Virus record (IMG/VR): IMGVR_UViG_3300048927_000816
Location: 1-30,494 of that record
Length of the DNA: 30,494 nt
Reading direction: 5' to 3' (one strand)
From: a virus
In this document: positions 1 through 14,299 of the stretch, piece after piece
Layout: each line of letters starts with the position of its first letter
How positions within the stretch are numbered: the stretch's first letter is position 1
Translations under genes and position numbers: made by a program
Notes under the pieces: model-generated
What the model was told of the DNA's origin: nothing
What the model saw: only the letters and a program-made list of their open reading frames with translations
The model's database searches: none

Positions 1-441
1 TCGGTTACAAGTCCTTCTGGTGGCGTGGTGTTAATTACCCCTTTGCTTATAGGCGGGGAGCTTCCGACGCAAGAATTGTTAGATAAGATTTTAAATATAT
101 GCGATCCAAAGGATAAGCGACCCTTAACAGATCATGTAACCGTCTCAGCGCCCGTTGTACGGTCTTTTGATATTGGTTTGACTTACTGGATAGACATTAA
201 TAACTCTGCTTCTGCGGTGGCGATACAGACGGCTGTAAACGAAGCTGTGCAGGCTTATATCTTGTGGCAAAAATCTAAGCTTGGACGTAATATAAACCCC
301 TCAGAGTTGACCAGGCTTGTTATGCAGGCGGGGGCTTATAGGGTGGATATTATAAACCCATCTTATACAGCTATTGCTTTTAACGAGGTAGCTATAGCCG
401 ATCAAGTAACGGTGACCTATGGAGGGTTTACCGATGATTAA
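1..441 (+). CDS. Baseplate J-like protein, C-terminal part (5' end outside window)
   Basis: The frame is open from the first base, so this is the last ~146 residues of a longer protein. Its C-terminus (ELPTQELLDKILNICDPKDK, then a hydrophobic strand-rich stretch and a final GGFTDD) has the pattern of P2 gpJ / PBSX XkdT baseplate proteins, which form the wedge of contractile-tail baseplates. The next gene is tail protein I, the usual partner of J, and overlaps it by 8 bases, which fits translational coupling. The family is inferred from the pattern and the neighbour; the N-terminal domain cannot be seen. Any start at GTG 25 would lie inside the protein, not at its true beginning. Confidence 0.85.
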   Translation, partial: SVTSPSGGVVLITPLLIGGELPTQELLDKILNICDPKDKRPLTDHVTVSAPVVRSFDIGLTYWIDINNSASAVAIQTAVNEAVQAYILWQKSKLGRNINPSELTRLVMQAGAYRVDIINPSYTAIAFNEVAIADQVTVTYGGFTDD

Positions 442-1087
442 ACTTGATCAGGTCAGTTTGGCTGATTTATTACCACCTAACTTGCTTAGTGATGCCAAAG
501 TGAGAGCTGCTGTTCAGGCGATTGACAAGGAACAGCAAGCGATCACAAAAGAGGCTAAAAAGCTTTCCCTCATGTCCAATTTAGATACTCTGGATGAGCA
601 ATGGATCAACGAGCTTATCTGGCAATTTCATGTGGAGGGTGCAGAGCTTGCAAGCACCTTGGACGAAAAACGAAACCTTATACGAAACTTTATTGACATC
701 CATAGAACTAAAGGCACAAGGTATGCGCTTGAGAGAGTCATAGATTTGCTTGGCATGAGAGCAATCATAAGCGAGTGGTTTGAGCATGGCGGTGATCCGT
801 ATACCTTCAGGATTGAGGTTCTGGAAGTCACAAACAAAGGGCTGACAGAGGAGAAGTTGAAGCTACTGGACAGGCTCATCATAGAATACAAGAACACCCG
901 ATCAAGGTTAACTTCTATTAGGGTCTATTTGTCGTCCAAAGGTAGCATGTTTTATGCAATCAACACTTCAAGCGGTGAGTCAATAACCATTTACCCTTGG
1001 AGTGTGGGAGAGATTGAAACTAGAGGTCAACTTAAAATTGGACAGGCAACTCAAACAACGGAGCTTATAACCGTTTATCCTAACTAA
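434..1087 (+). CDS. Phage tail protein I (P2 gpI-like)
   Basis: A 217-residue protein of the P2 gpI type, a baseplate wedge component acting beside baseplate J. The N-terminus contains a typical gpI stretch: LLPPNLLSDAKVRAAVQAID, helices, then DEQWINELIWQFHVEGAE and a basic segment ending GTRYALERVIDLLG. ATG 434 is preferred over ATG 419 because GGAGGG at 421-426 lies 7 bases before it. It overlaps the J-like gene by 8 bases and is followed after a short gap by the fibre gene, the standard order in contractile-tailed Firmicutes phages. Length is within the family range. Confidence 0.88.
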   Translation: MIKLDQVSLADLLPPNLLSDAKVRAAVQAIDKEQQAITKEAKKLSLMSNLDTLDEQWINELIWQFHVEGAELASTLDEKRNLIRNFIDIHRTKGTRYALERVIDLLGMRAIISEWFEHGGDPYTFRIEVLEVTNKGLTEEKLKLLDRLIIEYKNTRSRLTSIRVYLSSKGSMFYAINTSSGESITIYPWSVGEIETRGQLKIGQATQTTELITVYPN

Positions 1088-1104
1088 ACAAAGGAGGTCA
1101 TACA

Positions 1105-2805
1105 GTGGCAGAGTCATTTTATTCAATTCTAACTAACATTGGAAAAGCCAAGATTGCCAATGCCCACGTATTAGGAACTCAAGTTACGTTTACAACTATG
1201 GCCGTAGGTGATGGCGGTGGAAGTTACTATAATCCCGTCGAAACCAAAACCGCACTTAAACATGAAGTGTGGCGAGGTAACATTAATGAAATTAGTACAG
1301 ACCCAGACAACCCGAACTGGATTGTAATTAATACTGTGATTGTTTCTAATGTCGGTGGCTTCATGGTAAGGGAGGTGGGAGTGTTTGACGCTGAAGGTGA
1401 CATGATCGCTATCGGTAAAGTGCCTGAAACTTTCAAGCCTGTTTTAGATAGCGGAAGTGCAAAGGATTTATATGTACGCCTGGTAATTGAGGTTACCAAC
1501 ACATCAAGCGTTACTCTTAAAGTTGACCCATCTATTACACTCGCAACTAAAAAATATGTAGATGAAAAGATTGCTTTAGTTACTATCCCAGATGCATCTT
1601 TAACCCAAAAAGGAAAAGTTATGCTATCTAATGCAGTTGATAGCGATAGTGAGAGTCAGGCAGCCACACCAAAAGCAGTTAAGGCAGCTACTTTACAAGC
1701 TAAAGCCTATACTGACGATCAAATCAGTCTAGTCACAGCAACAGGCATTCCGAAGTTAGTGAGCTATCCTTTACAAGTGACAGCAACCGAAGCCAATCAA
1801 ACCACATTCGATATTCCACTAGATACGTTTGACGTAGCAACTGACACACTGATTGTCATCATTAATCGGGCGTTTCTGGATGCTTCTCATTACACTGTCA
1901 AGACAGGTACTCGGGATGAAGCTGGGGAACTGGTCAAACGTGCTGAGGTTGAGCTTGCTAGGGGCGTTACTGTAGGTTCTAAGTTGTCTCTTATCGTGCT
2001 GAAGAACGTTCCAACCGGTGCAGATGGCTCAATCAACGGGGCTGTACTAGCAACAGATAGTGTTCCGATCAATAGAGTTAATGGGCTACAAGACAAGCTA
2101 GACGAGGCTTTTCAAGCTGGCAATGAGCGGAAATCAGAGTTAGTTGCTGCGCTTATTGCCAAAGGTATACAAGCAACTACAGATGATTCATGGAACGATT
2201 TGTTAGACAAGGTTGATAGTATTGTTAAAGCTACTGGAAATGCTGCCGTAGGAGACATTAGACAAGGCAAAACAGCTACAACAGATGAAGGCAATGTAGT
2301 TGGCACGTTACCTGTTAGGACTGGAGGTGCAGTTACACCTAGTAAAACTACTCAAACTAAACAGGCAGGGATTTATGATAGCGATATTGTTGTAGAAGGT
2401 AGCAGTAATTTGGTAGCAGGGAATATTCGTAGTGGGGTTAATATGTTTGGGGTCGTTGGTAGTTATTCTGGAAATATAAGAATTCATTCGGGCACTTTAT
2501 TTATTCCAGCTGGTAGTACAGCTAGTGATTTTTATCCAAGTCCTCCTAAAATGTTATGGTTAAATGGAGCTACCTCAGCAAGTTATACTGGACAGTATTC
2601 TTTCGATAATACTGCTGTTTATATTTTGTACAGTGAATTAAATGTCGAGCCAAGTAGTCAATACAGACAATATAGTAATTATGGTTCGAGTTCAATAAGT
2701 CCAAATATTGTTTTGAATAGTCCATTATGGCAAACAAATCAGTTGGTTTATAGAAATCTAAATAGTAGCTTTGCACTATTTGTAAGAGGACTCGTAGTAT
2801 ATTAA
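1105..2805 (+). CDS. Tail fibre protein 1 (collar-type N-terminus)
   Basis: A 566-residue protein starting at GTG 1105 with AAGGAGG at 1091-1097. The first ~150 residues (FYSILTNIGKAKIANAHVLG, MAVGDGGG, then FMVREVGVFDAEGDMIAIG) match the phage tail-collar fibre N-terminal family that attaches a fibre to the baseplate. Residues 150-200 (KKYVDEKIALV, LTQKGKVMLSNAVDSDSESQ, ATPKAVKAA) are the usual fibre repeat. Residues ~380-454 form a block almost repeated in the next fibre gene. The last ~110 residues are rich in Ser, Tyr and Asn and unrelated to fibre 2, as expected for a receptor-binding tip. Function is host recognition, by family; the receptor is unknown. Confidence 0.88.
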   Translation: MAESFYSILTNIGKAKIANAHVLGTQVTFTTMAVGDGGGSYYNPVETKTALKHEVWRGNINEISTDPDNPNWIVINTVIVSNVGGFMVREVGVFDAEGDMIAIGKVPETFKPVLDSGSAKDLYVRLVIEVTNTSSVTLKVDPSITLATKKYVDEKIALVTIPDASLTQKGKVMLSNAVDSDSESQAATPKAVKAATLQAKAYTDDQISLVTATGIPKLVSYPLQVTATEANQTTFDIPLDTFDVATDTLIVIINRAFLDASHYTVKTGTRDEAGELVKRAEVELARGVTVGSKLSLIVLKNVPTGADGSINGAVLATDSVPINRVNGLQDKLDEAFQAGNERKSELVAALIAKGIQATTDDSWNDLLDKVDSIVKATGNAAVGDIRQGKTATTDEGNVVGTLPVRTGGAVTPSKTTQTKQAGIYDSDIVVEGSSNLVAGNIRSGVNMFGVVGSYSGNIRIHSGTLFIPAGSTASDFYPSPPKMLWLNGATSASYTGQYSFDNTAVYILYSELNVEPSSQYRQYSNYGSSSISPNIVLNSPLWQTNQLVYRNLNSSFALFVRGLVVY

Positions 2806-2820
2806 AAGGAGGAATTGATT

Positions 2821-3066
2821 ATGTTAGATTTCTTATCAAGTTATTTTATAGTTGATCGTCGTCAAACTAGAATTTATTTTACTAATACTTATTTAAATAA
2901 TGAAGGTGAAACTGTTTATTACGATATAATTGTTCCGATAGAAACTTTTATCTCAATGTTTGAAGAACAAATAAAAAGTGCAATGGAGAACGGAACAGAC
3001 CTTATGGATGAAATTAAAACCTGTGACCCAGAAAATAAGCTAGGATATAACAATTTAATCTTGTAA
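2821..3066 (+). CDS. Fibre-associated small protein, copy A
   Basis: An 81-residue protein with ATG 2821 behind AAAGGAGG at 2806-2812. It begins MLDFLSSYFIVDRRQTRIYF and ends DPENKLGYNNLIL, and has two paralogues in this window (3962-4195 and 4334-4579) with the same N- and C-terminal signatures around a variable middle. I do not recognise the family. Its position directly after a fibre gene, repeated for copy B, suggests a fibre assembly chaperone or small accessory tip subunit. No signal peptide or membrane segment is evident. The function is inference from context only. Confidence 0.8.
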   Translation: MLDFLSSYFIVDRRQTRIYFTNTYLNNEGETVYYDIIVPIETFISMFEEQIKSAMENGTDLMDEIKTCDPENKLGYNNLIL

Positions 3067-3089
3067 ATTTAAGGGAGGGGCCTGTATAC

Positions 3090-3965
3090 ATGGATGGAAT
3101 CACGCTTCAAGAAATGTCTGACGAGACAGTTCAGCAGCTTCATGCTAATTATGTCCGTCAACCTGCATTCGCTCATACAGAAGGTACAGCAGCAGACTAT
3201 GCGGTTACGTTAGAACCTGCACCTACAAGTTTGGTAGATGGCTTCGGGATTACTATAGTGCCGCACGTAGCTAATGCAGATAATCCAACACTAAATATTA
3301 ATGGACTTGGTGATATTGCTCTTAAAGATCAAAAGGGCAATCCTTATGTAGCAGGGAAGTTGCAGATAGGTAAGCCCTACACCTTCCGCAAAGTCGGTAC
3401 AGATTTTTTGGCAGATAGCTCTGGTGGGTCAGGTGATGCAGTAGCAGGAGACATCAGAGCAGGAAAAACAGCAACAACGGATAATGGGGATGTAGTTGGT
3501 ACATTACCTGTAAGGACTGGCAGTACAGTTACACCTAGTACAGTAAACCAAACAAAGCAAGCAGGGATTTATGATAATGATATTGTGGTACAGGGTAGTT
3601 CTAATTTAGTTGCAGGGAATATTAAGAAGGGGACGAATATGTTTGGGGTGGTGGGCACGTATGAGGGGAAGTCGGTTGGTACAATGTCATCGGCAGAGTA
3701 TTTATATGTTCCTGTAAGTTCGACAGTAAGTGTTCCAACGCCTTCGACAATGGATTTTGTATATGGGTGTCGTTATGGTTTTTCTTCTAGTTTAGCCGTA
3801 GGAATGTATGATTCTAATAATAATCAAGGACAGAGTTGTTCCATTCATAACGGTCGAGATGTTGTAAGAATTCTCATTAATTTATCGGGTGCATGTAGCA
3901 TTCAGAATAATGCTGATAGTTCTATTGCGGGATACTATATAATTACTGGGAGGAATAAAGTATGA
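3090..3965 (+). CDS. Tail fibre protein 2
   Basis: A 291-residue protein starting at ATG 3090 with GGGAGGGG at 3073-3080. It lacks the collar N-terminus of fibre 1. Residues 1-40 are helical, ~40-110 (DGFGITIVPHVANADNPTLN, LKDQKGNPYVAGKL) resemble short phage fibre/head-decoration repeats, and ~116-191 repeat the block of fibre 1 (RAGKTATTD, GTLPVRTG, KQAGIYDNDIVV, GSSNLVAGNIK, NMFGVVG). The tip, ~195-291, is a distinct sequence with GRDVVRILINLSGACSI. It overlaps the next gene by 4 bases. It is probably a second receptor-binding or adaptor fibre that shares a stalk module with fibre 1. Confidence 0.8.
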   Translation: MDGITLQEMSDETVQQLHANYVRQPAFAHTEGTAADYAVTLEPAPTSLVDGFGITIVPHVANADNPTLNINGLGDIALKDQKGNPYVAGKLQIGKPYTFRKVGTDFLADSSGGSGDAVAGDIRAGKTATTDNGDVVGTLPVRTGSTVTPSTVNQTKQAGIYDNDIVVQGSSNLVAGNIKKGTNMFGVVGTYEGKSVGTMSSAEYLYVPVSSTVSVPTPSTMDFVYGCRYGFSSSLAVGMYDSNNNQGQSCSIHNGRDVVRILINLSGACSIQNNADSSIAGYYIITGRNKV

Positions 3966-4195
3966 ATGAATTTTTATCGAACTATTTTATCATGGATCGT
4001 AGACAAACAAGGATATATTTTATTGTAGTTTCGCCAGATGGAACTGAATTTGATGGGACTGTTATGGTTGACAAATTCATTGAATTGTTTGAAATACCTC
4101 TTCAAAAAGCCATTGACAACAACACTGAACCAATGGACGAAATCAGAGCTTTTGATCCAGAAAACAAGCTAGGCTATAACGAGTTAATCGTCTAA
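3962..4195 (+). CDS. Fibre-associated small protein, copy B
   Basis: A 77-residue paralogue of the gene at 2821-3066. It starts MNEFLSNYFIMDRRQTRIYF and ends DPENKLGYNELIV. ATG 3962 overlaps the stop of fibre 2 (ATGA), so translation is probably coupled to that fibre. The middle (FDGTVMVDKFIELFEIPLQK) diverges from copy A more than the ends do. The fibre-then-small-gene pairing occurs twice, which supports a joint function such as specific fibre folding or trimer capping. The family is not recognised. Confidence 0.78.
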   Translation: MNEFLSNYFIMDRRQTRIYFIVVSPDGTEFDGTVMVDKFIELFEIPLQKAIDNNTEPMDEIRAFDPENKLGYNELIV

Positions 4196-4333
4196 GAACT
4201 AATTGCCCCACTGAGTTCTTCAGGAGGGTAATTTCTATGTGAAATTTTTGCCAAAAAAGTTGAGAATTTTTGCCATAAATTTTGCGCCGCTACAGAAATT
4301 GAGACGGATATTTCAGACGAACGTGTACAGGAA
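4196..4333 (+). other. Probable deletion scar where a third fibre gene would stand
   Basis: By analogy with copies A and B a fibre gene is expected here, but only 138 bases remain. AGGAGGG at 4222-4228 is followed by ATG 4237 that meets TGA at once, so the start leads nowhere. A 33-codon frame from GTG 4239 ends at 4340, overlapping the next start; it is rich in Lys, Phe and Arg and looks accidental. Two near-copies of GAATTTTTGCCA (4241-4252 and 4263-4274 areas) lie inside. I read this as the junction left after loss of a fibre gene. A short leader peptide coupled to copy C is the alternative. Confidence 0.45.
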
Positions 4334-4579
4334 ATGTTAGATTTTATATCAACTTATTTTATAATGGATCGACGTAAGACTAGAATATATTTTATTGGTC
4401 ATGCAGAGGATGACAAAGGCAATGTTGTTGAATACGACATTATCTCTGATGCAATTCCGTTCGTTAAGATTAAGTTAATTCCAATCACTAAATCAATGAA
4501 AAACGGAACTGATTTAATGAATGAGATTAGGCTACATGATCCAGAGAATCAACATGGTTTCAATAATCTGATATTATAG
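4334..4579 (+). CDS. Fibre-associated small protein, copy C
   Basis: An 81-residue paralogue of copies A and B, beginning MLDFISTYFIMDRRKTRIYF and ending DPENQHGFNNLIL. Unlike the other two it has no fibre gene in front and no good ribosome binding site near ATG 4334. Expression may depend on coupling to the short frame ending at 4340. It closes the structural operon: a hairpin and T-run follow at 4586. It may be a relic of a third fibre cassette kept because of recent duplication, or still functional; the reading frame is intact. Confidence 0.68.
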   Translation: MLDFISTYFIMDRRKTRIYFIGHAEDDKGNVVEYDIISDAIPFVKIKLIPITKSMKNGTDLMNEIRLHDPENQHGFNNLIL

Positions 4580-4585
4580 CAGACA

Positions 4586-4604
4586 GCGCCTAAAGGCGTT
4601 TTTA
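4586..4604 (+). terminator. Probable rho-independent terminator after tail genes
   Basis: CGCC (4587-4590), loop TAAA, GGCG (4595-4598) and a run of five T. The stem is short but GC-only, placed directly after the last small fibre-associated gene. It may only partly terminate, letting some transcripts continue into the lysis genes. Confidence 0.5.
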
Positions 4605-4608
4605 TTTT

Positions 4609-4631
4609 GCCCTCTGAGCCGATCAGGGGGC
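4609..4631 (+). other. Hairpin before the lysis cassette
   Basis: GCCCTCTGA (4609-4617) pairs with TCAGGGGGC (4623-4631) with one G-T wobble and a five-base loop. There is no strong T-run behind it, so an mRNA-stabilising or processing hairpin between tail and lysis genes is as likely as a terminator. Confidence 0.45.
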
Positions 4632-4656
4632 AATTTTAGTGGAGCGAGGGATGAGG

Positions 4657-4944
4657 ATGGAGTTTTCAGTTATTCTTGCTGTTATTACGGCTCTTAGTGG
4701 TATGGCTTTAGGATGGATGGGCAGGACACGCACAATTCGGCAGGATGCAGCCCACGATGCAGGCACAGTGTCAGCCCTTCAAACAGACCTAGAGTATATT
4801 AGACGCGGTGTGGATGATATTAGGTTAGATCAGCGTGTACAAAGTCAACGTATTGACGTATTAAGTGAACGTGTCACACGAATTGAAGAATCTAGTAAGT
4901 CGCTTCACAAGCGTACTGATGAGTTGAGGAATTTAATAAGTTAA
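4657..4944 (+). CDS. XhlA-like membrane-anchored lysis protein
   Basis: A protein of about 95 residues. Residues 1-20 are a hydrophobic helix (EFSVILAVITALSGMALGWM), followed by a long charged helical region with coiled-coil spacing (LQTDLEYIRRGVDDIRLDQR, VLSERVTRIEES, LHKRTDELRNLIS). This is the architecture of PBSX XhlA, a small membrane protein that works with holin and amidase in host lysis. ATG 4657 has GAGGG at 4646-4650; GTG 4639 and ATG 4651 are other possible starts. The amidase starts 15 bases after the stop. The assignment rests on topology and position rather than motifs. Confidence 0.7.
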   Translation: MEFSVILAVITALSGMALGWMGRTRTIRQDAAHDAGTVSALQTDLEYIRRGVDDIRLDQRVQSQRIDVLSERVTRIEESSKSLHKRTDELRNLIS

Positions 4945-13685: not shown

Positions 13686-13964
13686 ATGAACAAAAACCAA
13701 CAATGCCTGCAAGCACTTATTAACTTTTTCGTTGATCTTGAACAACGCATGTTACGCAAAGGTCGCCTAGTAATTGCTCTATATGCTAACAAGCAACAAC
13801 TTAAATATCGTAAAGAGTTATTTTGCACCTATGGTGAGGATAAACAACTTGATAACCTAGCCATCTACTTCCAACATTTCAACATCCAAGATCGCTATAA
13901 GATCACCTTTGAGTCCTTTGTCAGACAGGTACAGCAAGGTACATGGGAGGCGAGGCTAGCATGA
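13686..13964 (+). CDS. Unrecognised 92-residue early protein upstream of MazF-like toxin
   Basis: A basic, helical protein (ALINFFVDLEQRMLRKGRLV, YANKQQLKYRKELFCTYGED, FQHFNIQDRYKITFESFVRQ). Its stop overlaps the MazF-like start (ATGA), a typical antitoxin-toxin arrangement, but it shows no MazE-like AbrB fold or other known antitoxin motif. It could be an unrelated early protein or a novel partner of the toxin. Confidence 0.72.
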   Translation: MNKNQQCLQALINFFVDLEQRMLRKGRLVIALYANKQQLKYRKELFCTYGEDKQLDNLAIYFQHFNIQDRYKITFESFVRQVQQGTWEARLA

Positions 13965-14299
13965 GCGCCTATAAACGCGGGCAAGTCTGGTACGCCGATC
14001 TAGGCAGGGGTAAAGGCAGTGAGCAAAGCGGCGATCGTCCAGTACTAATCATACAAAACGACATAGGTAATCATCACAGTACAACCGTTATCGTTGCTGC
14101 TATGACGGACAAGCATAAGCCGCGTATTCCAACTCATGTAAAGCTCGATAAGGTGGTTGGAGTATCAGCTACTACTATCGTGTTGCTTGAGCAGATTCGT
14201 ACAGTAGACAAACTCAGGTTGAGTAATTGCATAGCAACATTGCCTAAAGAAGCGATGGAGCAAGTAGATGCTGCTTTAGCAATAAGCATTGGATTATGA
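13961..14299 (+). CDS. MazF/PemK-family endoribonuclease, no recognised antitoxin
   Basis: A 112-residue protein; ATG 13961 with GGGAGG at 13944-13950. The MazF signature is clear: YKRGQVWYADLG, GSEQSGDRPVLIIQNDIGN, STTVIVAAMTDK, PTHVKLD, STVVLLEQIRT-like QIRTVDK. R26 in GDRPVLI and the TVIVAAMT strand hold the usual catalytic Arg and Thr. MazF toxins cleave mRNA at short sequences. The neighbours are a helical protein (overlap 4 bases) upstream and a zinc-ribbon microprotein downstream; neither is MazE. In an early phage operon it may degrade host transcripts, or be a stabilisation toxin. Confidence 0.9.
   Translation: MSAYKRGQVWYADLGRGKGSEQSGDRPVLIIQNDIGNHHSTTVIVAAMTDKHKPRIPTHVKLDKVVGVSATTIVLLEQIRTVDKLRLSNCIATLPKEAMEQVDAALAISIGL

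Follow-up and report, generated by a model that had tools for sequence, protein, structure and literature searches.

The virus record analysed here, a window of 30,494 bases with the last of the tail genes at its left end, carries three related genes for small, mostly acidic and, by prediction, partly helical proteins, which we infer to be partners of tail-fibre tips. Judged by gene order in the window and in related phages, the family of these genes (here called companions) sits behind fibres of one architecture. Their position, size and modular conservation, together with precedent, lead us to regard the companion as a probable fibre assembly helper or tip cap, which would work like Tfa, Pam3 gp25 or V22 gp27. 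The features on which this analysis is based are collected in Table 1, and related phage loci are referred to by number (L005 and so on).

Table 1. Fibre genes, companions and neighbouring features in the window
Feature	Position	Strand	Remarks
Tail_P2_I protein	419-1087		Upstream of fibre 1
Fibre 1, 566 aa	1105..2805	+	PF12571 E 2.2e-62, PF03406 E 7.4e-13
Shaft block of fibre 1	2250..2459	+	Matches fibre 2 block; putative left edge of exchange unit
Companion 1, 81 aa (81 codons)	2821..3066	+	In frame of fibre 1, 15 nt past fibre 1 stop, good SD
Fibre 2, 291 aa	3090..3965	+	Own N-terminal block, shaft block, ~102-aa tip
Shaft block of fibre 2	3446..3655	+	blastn matches to fibre 1 and relatives
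Tip of fibre 2	3671..3948	+	Compared by blastn with 8 other cassettes
Companion 2, 77 aa (77 codons)	3962..4195	+	ATGA overlap with fibre 2 stop
5' region of companion 3	4222..4333	+	SD 4222-4228, ATG 4237-4239, TGA 4240-4242
Companion 3 (orphan), 81 aa (81 codons), from ATG 4334	4334..4579	+	No fibre gene directly upstream
Two terminator-like hairpins closing the fibre block	4585..4633	+	

Fibre 1 consists, in order, of an N-terminal collar-fibre domain, a fibre repeat, the shaft block and a tip of ~114 aa, the tip being cut by motif. When both fibres were examined as collar-fibre proteins, the N-terminal PF12571 domain was present in fibre 1 (Table 1) and absent from fibre 2, which gave no Pfam match at E up to 1; by tblastn, residues 6-202 of fibre 2 are 37.6% identical to the tail fibre of phi OH2. 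DNA related to the two hairpins comes after the last tail gene in L005, L011, L012, L013 and L017, and past the hairpins of the window lie a phrog_1863 gene, then an amidase and then a holin. The best matches of this amidase among phage records are those of Brevibacillus phages, at ~50%. Elsewhere in the window, a PemK/MazF-like toxin gene (PF02452, E 6.3e-31) is found at 13943-14299.

That the window holds three homologous genes of ~80 residues was predicted from its sequence, and identities, E-values and shuffles agree on this point. Companions 2 and 3 share 52-53% identity with companion 1 (E 1.7e-21 or better), 29 of the 81 alignment columns are invariant in all three, and the pairwise local scores of 169-211 compare with maxima of 46-53 over 1000 shuffles each. 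The two motifs said to be shared by the three proteins hold in part: MLDF..DRR is found in companions 1 and 3, but companion 2 starts with MNEF, and DPENxxGYN is found in companions 1 and 2, but companion 3 has DPENQHGFN. Related phages contributed five further members (L005, L011, L012, L013 and L014), giving eight intact companions from six records.

Seven of the eight start no more than 25 nt from a fibre stop or overlap it, the exception being companion 3, and these placement counts rest on few independent phages (8 intact members, 6 records). Companions 1 and 2 do follow fibre genes, as originally predicted (Table 1); the ATGA overlap of companion 2 recurs in L011 and L012, i.e. in three of the eight copies, and the gap between fibre stop and companion start is 23 nt in L005, 17 nt in L013 and 4 nt in L014. 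Companions lying far from fibres in related phages would speak against such a link; searches of 12 whole records found no companion away from a fibre, and exactly one companion in 6 of the 12, that of L021 being truncated.

The family is unnamed in the libraries that we searched, and by sequence it fails the test for Tfa. None of the eight companions had a convincing match in Pfam, PHROGs or NCBIfam, and the weak matches of single members (Lsr2 at 0.0044 and UPF0102 at 0.0049 in Pfam, phrog_19501 at 0.01, MsrB at 0.097) were at chance level. There was likewise no convincing match among PDB sequences (best E 1.1). Against 50,697 phage records one search was empty and another gave a single match at E 3, and of two plasmid searches one gave a match at E 0.9, which is not credible, and the second was empty. 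Scans of genome contigs returned 74 and 30 stretches, none of which was confirmed. A candidate relative in L004 (HMM E 0.014) was rejected, as it comprises 23 residues on the strand opposite a 1081-codon ORF. Among the papers found by literature searches, none describes the family, as judged by title and the start of the abstract.

Conservation within the family is distributed unevenly. Residues 21-40 form the variable part, with a mean pair identity of 0.19, and residues 58-68 and 69-81 form the conserved part, with pair identities of 0.61 and 0.75; residues 9-20 are likewise conserved (0.58). In the C part pN is low and pS is mostly saturated over the 28 pairs, which argues for constraint at the protein level. 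The idea that the companion 3' end is kept merely as a recombination site was dropped, since protein constraint accounts for most of the conservation. Room remains for recent exchange, as a few pairs have lower pS (0.30 for companion 1 with L012, 0.42 for companion 1 with L005 and for companion 2 with L011). The AlphaFold2 model of the companion (pLDDT 85.2, pTM 0.68) contains a helix, a hairpin and two helices, with helices at residues 40-57 and 61-68. When the fibre 1 tip and companion 1 were folded as a read-through, the companion part reached pLDDT 74-95 by blocks, but the tip did not fold (under 50), leaving no interface to assess.

Fibre genes with an adjacent cognate helper, swapped as modules, are already known, according to the excerpts available of three papers (PMC10579305, PMC7289586, PMC9608196). 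In Mu Tfa and Pam3 gp25, the variable N part is described as binding the fibre and the conserved helical C part as trimerising (excerpt of PMC9608196). The companions resemble these fibre helpers in lying directly behind a fibre gene (7 of 8 copies) and in their layout of a variable N part (residues 21-40) and a conserved helical C part (residues 58-81). They differ from the Tfa kind in being half as long (~80 aa versus 162 for gp25), and no Tfa-type sequence or tail-fibre assembly family was matched by any of the eight members at E up to 5. With respect to an N-terminal beta-sandwich fold, the companion model shows one hairpin plus helices, and its fold searches gave no significant match (E up to 0.001; best VIA Z 2.5). 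A second precedent is gp27 of Alteromonas phage V22, a non-homologous chaperone that is encoded directly downstream of the fibre (excerpt of PMC7289586) and that, together with A5 gp9, represents a non-Tfa chaperone module found in distant phages (excerpts of PMC7289586 and PMC10579305). With its 21.8 kDa, gp27 differs from the companion, which is set beside it by description. The tail fibre of A5 is reported to work without its chaperone gp9 (excerpt of PMC10579305), so that a helper may serve as a cap without being required.

If the companion acts as a helper or cap, the product of this gene, encoded immediately after the fibre, would bind the nascent C-terminal tip and would help it to fold and trimerise, or would cap it, and it may leave afterwards. 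Contact with the tip would be made by the variable hairpin (residues 21-40), and a common task, e.g. self-assembly, would fall to the conserved helices together with the DPENxxGYN tail. The identical gene position and the high variability of residues 21-40 are also compatible with a companion that remains in the fibre tip permanently, as a bound adhesin or accessory subunit, and helps to choose the receptor besides folding, just as Mu Tfa remains on the fibre and S16 gp38 on the tip (excerpt of PMC7289586). We consider such a lasting subunit unlikely, given that the conserved half is the C-terminal one, that the proteins are short, and that the L017 phage lost its companion but retained the fibre.

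Evidence for movement of companions together with tips comes from nine cassettes, all 36 pairs of which were compared by blastn. The shaft blocks of fibres 1 and 2 are 78.6% identical over 210 nt (227 nt at 77% in a second comparison) and no match covers the tips, which confirms the predicted internal block shared by two fibres with different tips. Stretches overlapping the fibre 2 shaft block have 82-86% DNA identity in L011, L012, L013 and L017, the tip of fibre 2 is covered by a match in none of its eight pairwise blastn comparisons with other cassettes, and the 3' end of companion 2 matches that of L012 at 86.9% over 99 nt. As proteins the tips are nearly unalignable: of nine tips, taken from the 9 of 14 fibres in which the motif was detected, those of L011 and L012 alone match each other (E 5e-5). 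Both L022 fibres, fibre 1 of L011 and fibre 2 of L005 and of L021 thus stand outside the tip comparison, for which alignment A10 was used; A8 and A9, where tips were mixed with companions, were excluded. Since the shaft and the companion 3' end are conserved and the tip between them is variable, tip plus companion looks exchangeable as a unit. Recombination within the conserved shaft and the companion 3' edges would swap both at once, and a right-hand junction outside the old companion would leave that companion stranded. The match between tip and helper may be loose, because companion 2 and the L011 companion are 66% identical despite tips that have no blastp match.

In the Mu fibre/assembly-gene pairs S-U and S'-U', tip and helper are exchanged together. 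With regard to a Mu-like inversion, a scan of 10 of the window's ORFs detected no invertase family, and inverted repeats of at least 18 nt were absent from window 1000-4700.

The original prediction explained the three copies by tandem duplication of the fibre-companion pair within the phage lineage and subsequent deletion of a third fibre. Consistent with this are the shaft block shared at 78.6% and the 85% identity of companions 1 and 3 over their first 61 nt, which is one sign of local mixing. However, every copy is closest to the companion of another phage (copy 1 to L005, 60%; copy 2 to L011, 66%, and L012, 63%; copy 3 to L013, 58%), and the window companions are only 47-53% identical among themselves. 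In the tree of the eight companions, in which three of the five inner branches are drawn open, copy 3 pairs with L013 at 98/96, and both group with copy 1 and L005 at 91/92, apart from the remaining four, copy 2, L011, L012 and L014, whose order is weakly resolved. Being nearer to other phages' companions than to their window neighbours, the copies arrived or diverged before those phages separated, and judged by identities and tree the three are not products of recent local triplication.

The region before companion 3 bears on the supposed third fibre. The scar of SD, ATG and TGA noted there is present in its bases (4222-4242), but the stretch is more than an empty scar. Copy 3 has no stop in its frame as far back as 4232 (115 codons open), and upstream of ATG 4334 this frame encodes TEIETDISDERVQE, which is like PDREEEISEERMTA of the L013 companion; this similarity score was reached by 26 of 5000 shuffles, and the other two frames were negative. 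Moreover, the DNA at 4215-4272, with its SD-ATG (4222-4239), was compared with 14 starts and is most similar to that of the L013 companion (1 of 500 shuffles, which becomes ~0.03 after correction for the 14 starts compared); it resembles none of 7 fibre starts. No remnant of a fibre is seen before copy 3. Both this region and the tree make tandem duplication with deletion of a third fibre quite unlikely. Under the simplest reading, 4222-4333 would be companion 3's own 5' end, whose start has come to lie in another frame than the body. At 4243 and 4265 there is a direct repeat of 20 nt, which is imperfect, and an imperfect palindrome, AAGAACT...AGTTCTT, is located at 4194-4220, directly behind companion 2 and ahead of the companion 3 SD. 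The SD of ATG 4334 is poorly spaced, and a 33-codon GTG frame ends over this ATG; copy 3 may be translated from ATG 4334, via coupling to the GTG frame, or not at all. Most likely, companion 3 is a relic of the lineage found behind a fibre in L013, and a displaced old tip whose companion was left behind would explain copy 3 without any third fibre. It is very doubtful, though conceivable, that this is a new non-Tfa helper family exchanged with the receptor-binding tip, whose orphans, companion 3 among them, continue to be produced and function in trans. A phage having three helpers for two fibres could then bias which fibre matures, or could put a new tip to use immediately.

Cassettes have been gained as well as lost, and in relatives companions have been truncated or lost, as indicated by remnants in L021, L017 and L013. 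Behind fibre 1 of L021, the last 48 codons of a companion remain. In L017, nothing but TTAATCGTATAA stands between a fibre of this architecture and the terminator, and these letters are identical to those that end the L012 companion. In L013, a mini frame MGNLIV (NLIV-stop) lies behind the intact companion; its 3' part clearly matches companion ends, and the best match of its 5' part, to the start of window fibre 2 (12 of 1000 shuffles, 17 tests), is non-significant after correction. The fibre kept in L017 without a companion suggests that the partner is not always needed, or that another tip was brought in. The dedicated fibre partner of the original prediction is therefore upheld by position in relatives as a companion of fibre genes, but not as a strictly dedicated one, since companions are far more alike than tips and the L017 fibre has outlived its companion.

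The slot behind fibres is often occupied by other small genes, which were listed for 14 of 25 related loci; the companion HMM, run over all loci, found nothing in these. The second fibres of L005 and L021 have a tip of a different kind and are followed by other small genes. Small coiled-coil genes of related phages (phrog_3321 and others) take the same slot after fibre 1 or fibre 2, but their profile is unlike that of the companions, and several end in a ...KQAIAELTMMI helix that companions do not have. As distant companions, the other small genes were rejected on four hhalign probabilities, all <1%, among them 0.2% for companions versus A12, an alignment whose first member hits phrog_3321 at 9.1e-41.

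Several further gene arrangements were observed around these fibres. At L009 5938-6312 and L025 7658-8059, there is a small gene behind fibres that in phi OH2 and in phrog_3321 bears the label rhodanese-related sulfurtransferase. This label may be wrong, since both the place of the gene and the helix at its C-terminus point to a fibre helper. In L012 (2635-4942), L013 (2579-4859) and L017 (2565-4836), fibre 1 is shortened to 189 codons, and after it come genes of 105-109, 338-353 and 102 codons, the second of which carries beta-propeller repeats (PF06739) in L017; these genes are a further receptor-binding module at this position. In L005 (6498-7105), the glycine-rich fibre 2 is followed by a 156-codon gene without Pfam match and by an XkdX gene (PF09693), the final codons of which run into the shared terminator. 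Downstream of the holin in L012, 8784-10148 encodes a 454-aa protein with HTH_3 and weak TPR matches, which could, we presume, be a peptide-responsive phage regulator.

That the companions are late-operon passengers (regulator, immunity or anti-defence genes) whose position reflects insertion sites and not interaction would agree with the absent family and fold matches and with a presence that is not universal, but it is highly improbable in view of the three copies out of eight that overlap the fibre by ATGA, of 12 records with no companion elsewhere, and of unrelated small genes in the same slot behind other fibres.

If the companion is indeed a fibre assembly helper or tip cap, an unnamed helper family would be added to phage fibre assembly in Gram-positive hosts, and small unannotated genes behind fibres would be explained. 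An intact pair, a truncated helper, a last-codon remnant and a stranded helper would then form a visible record of tip swapping, and the family would predict which small gene to include when such fibres are expressed.
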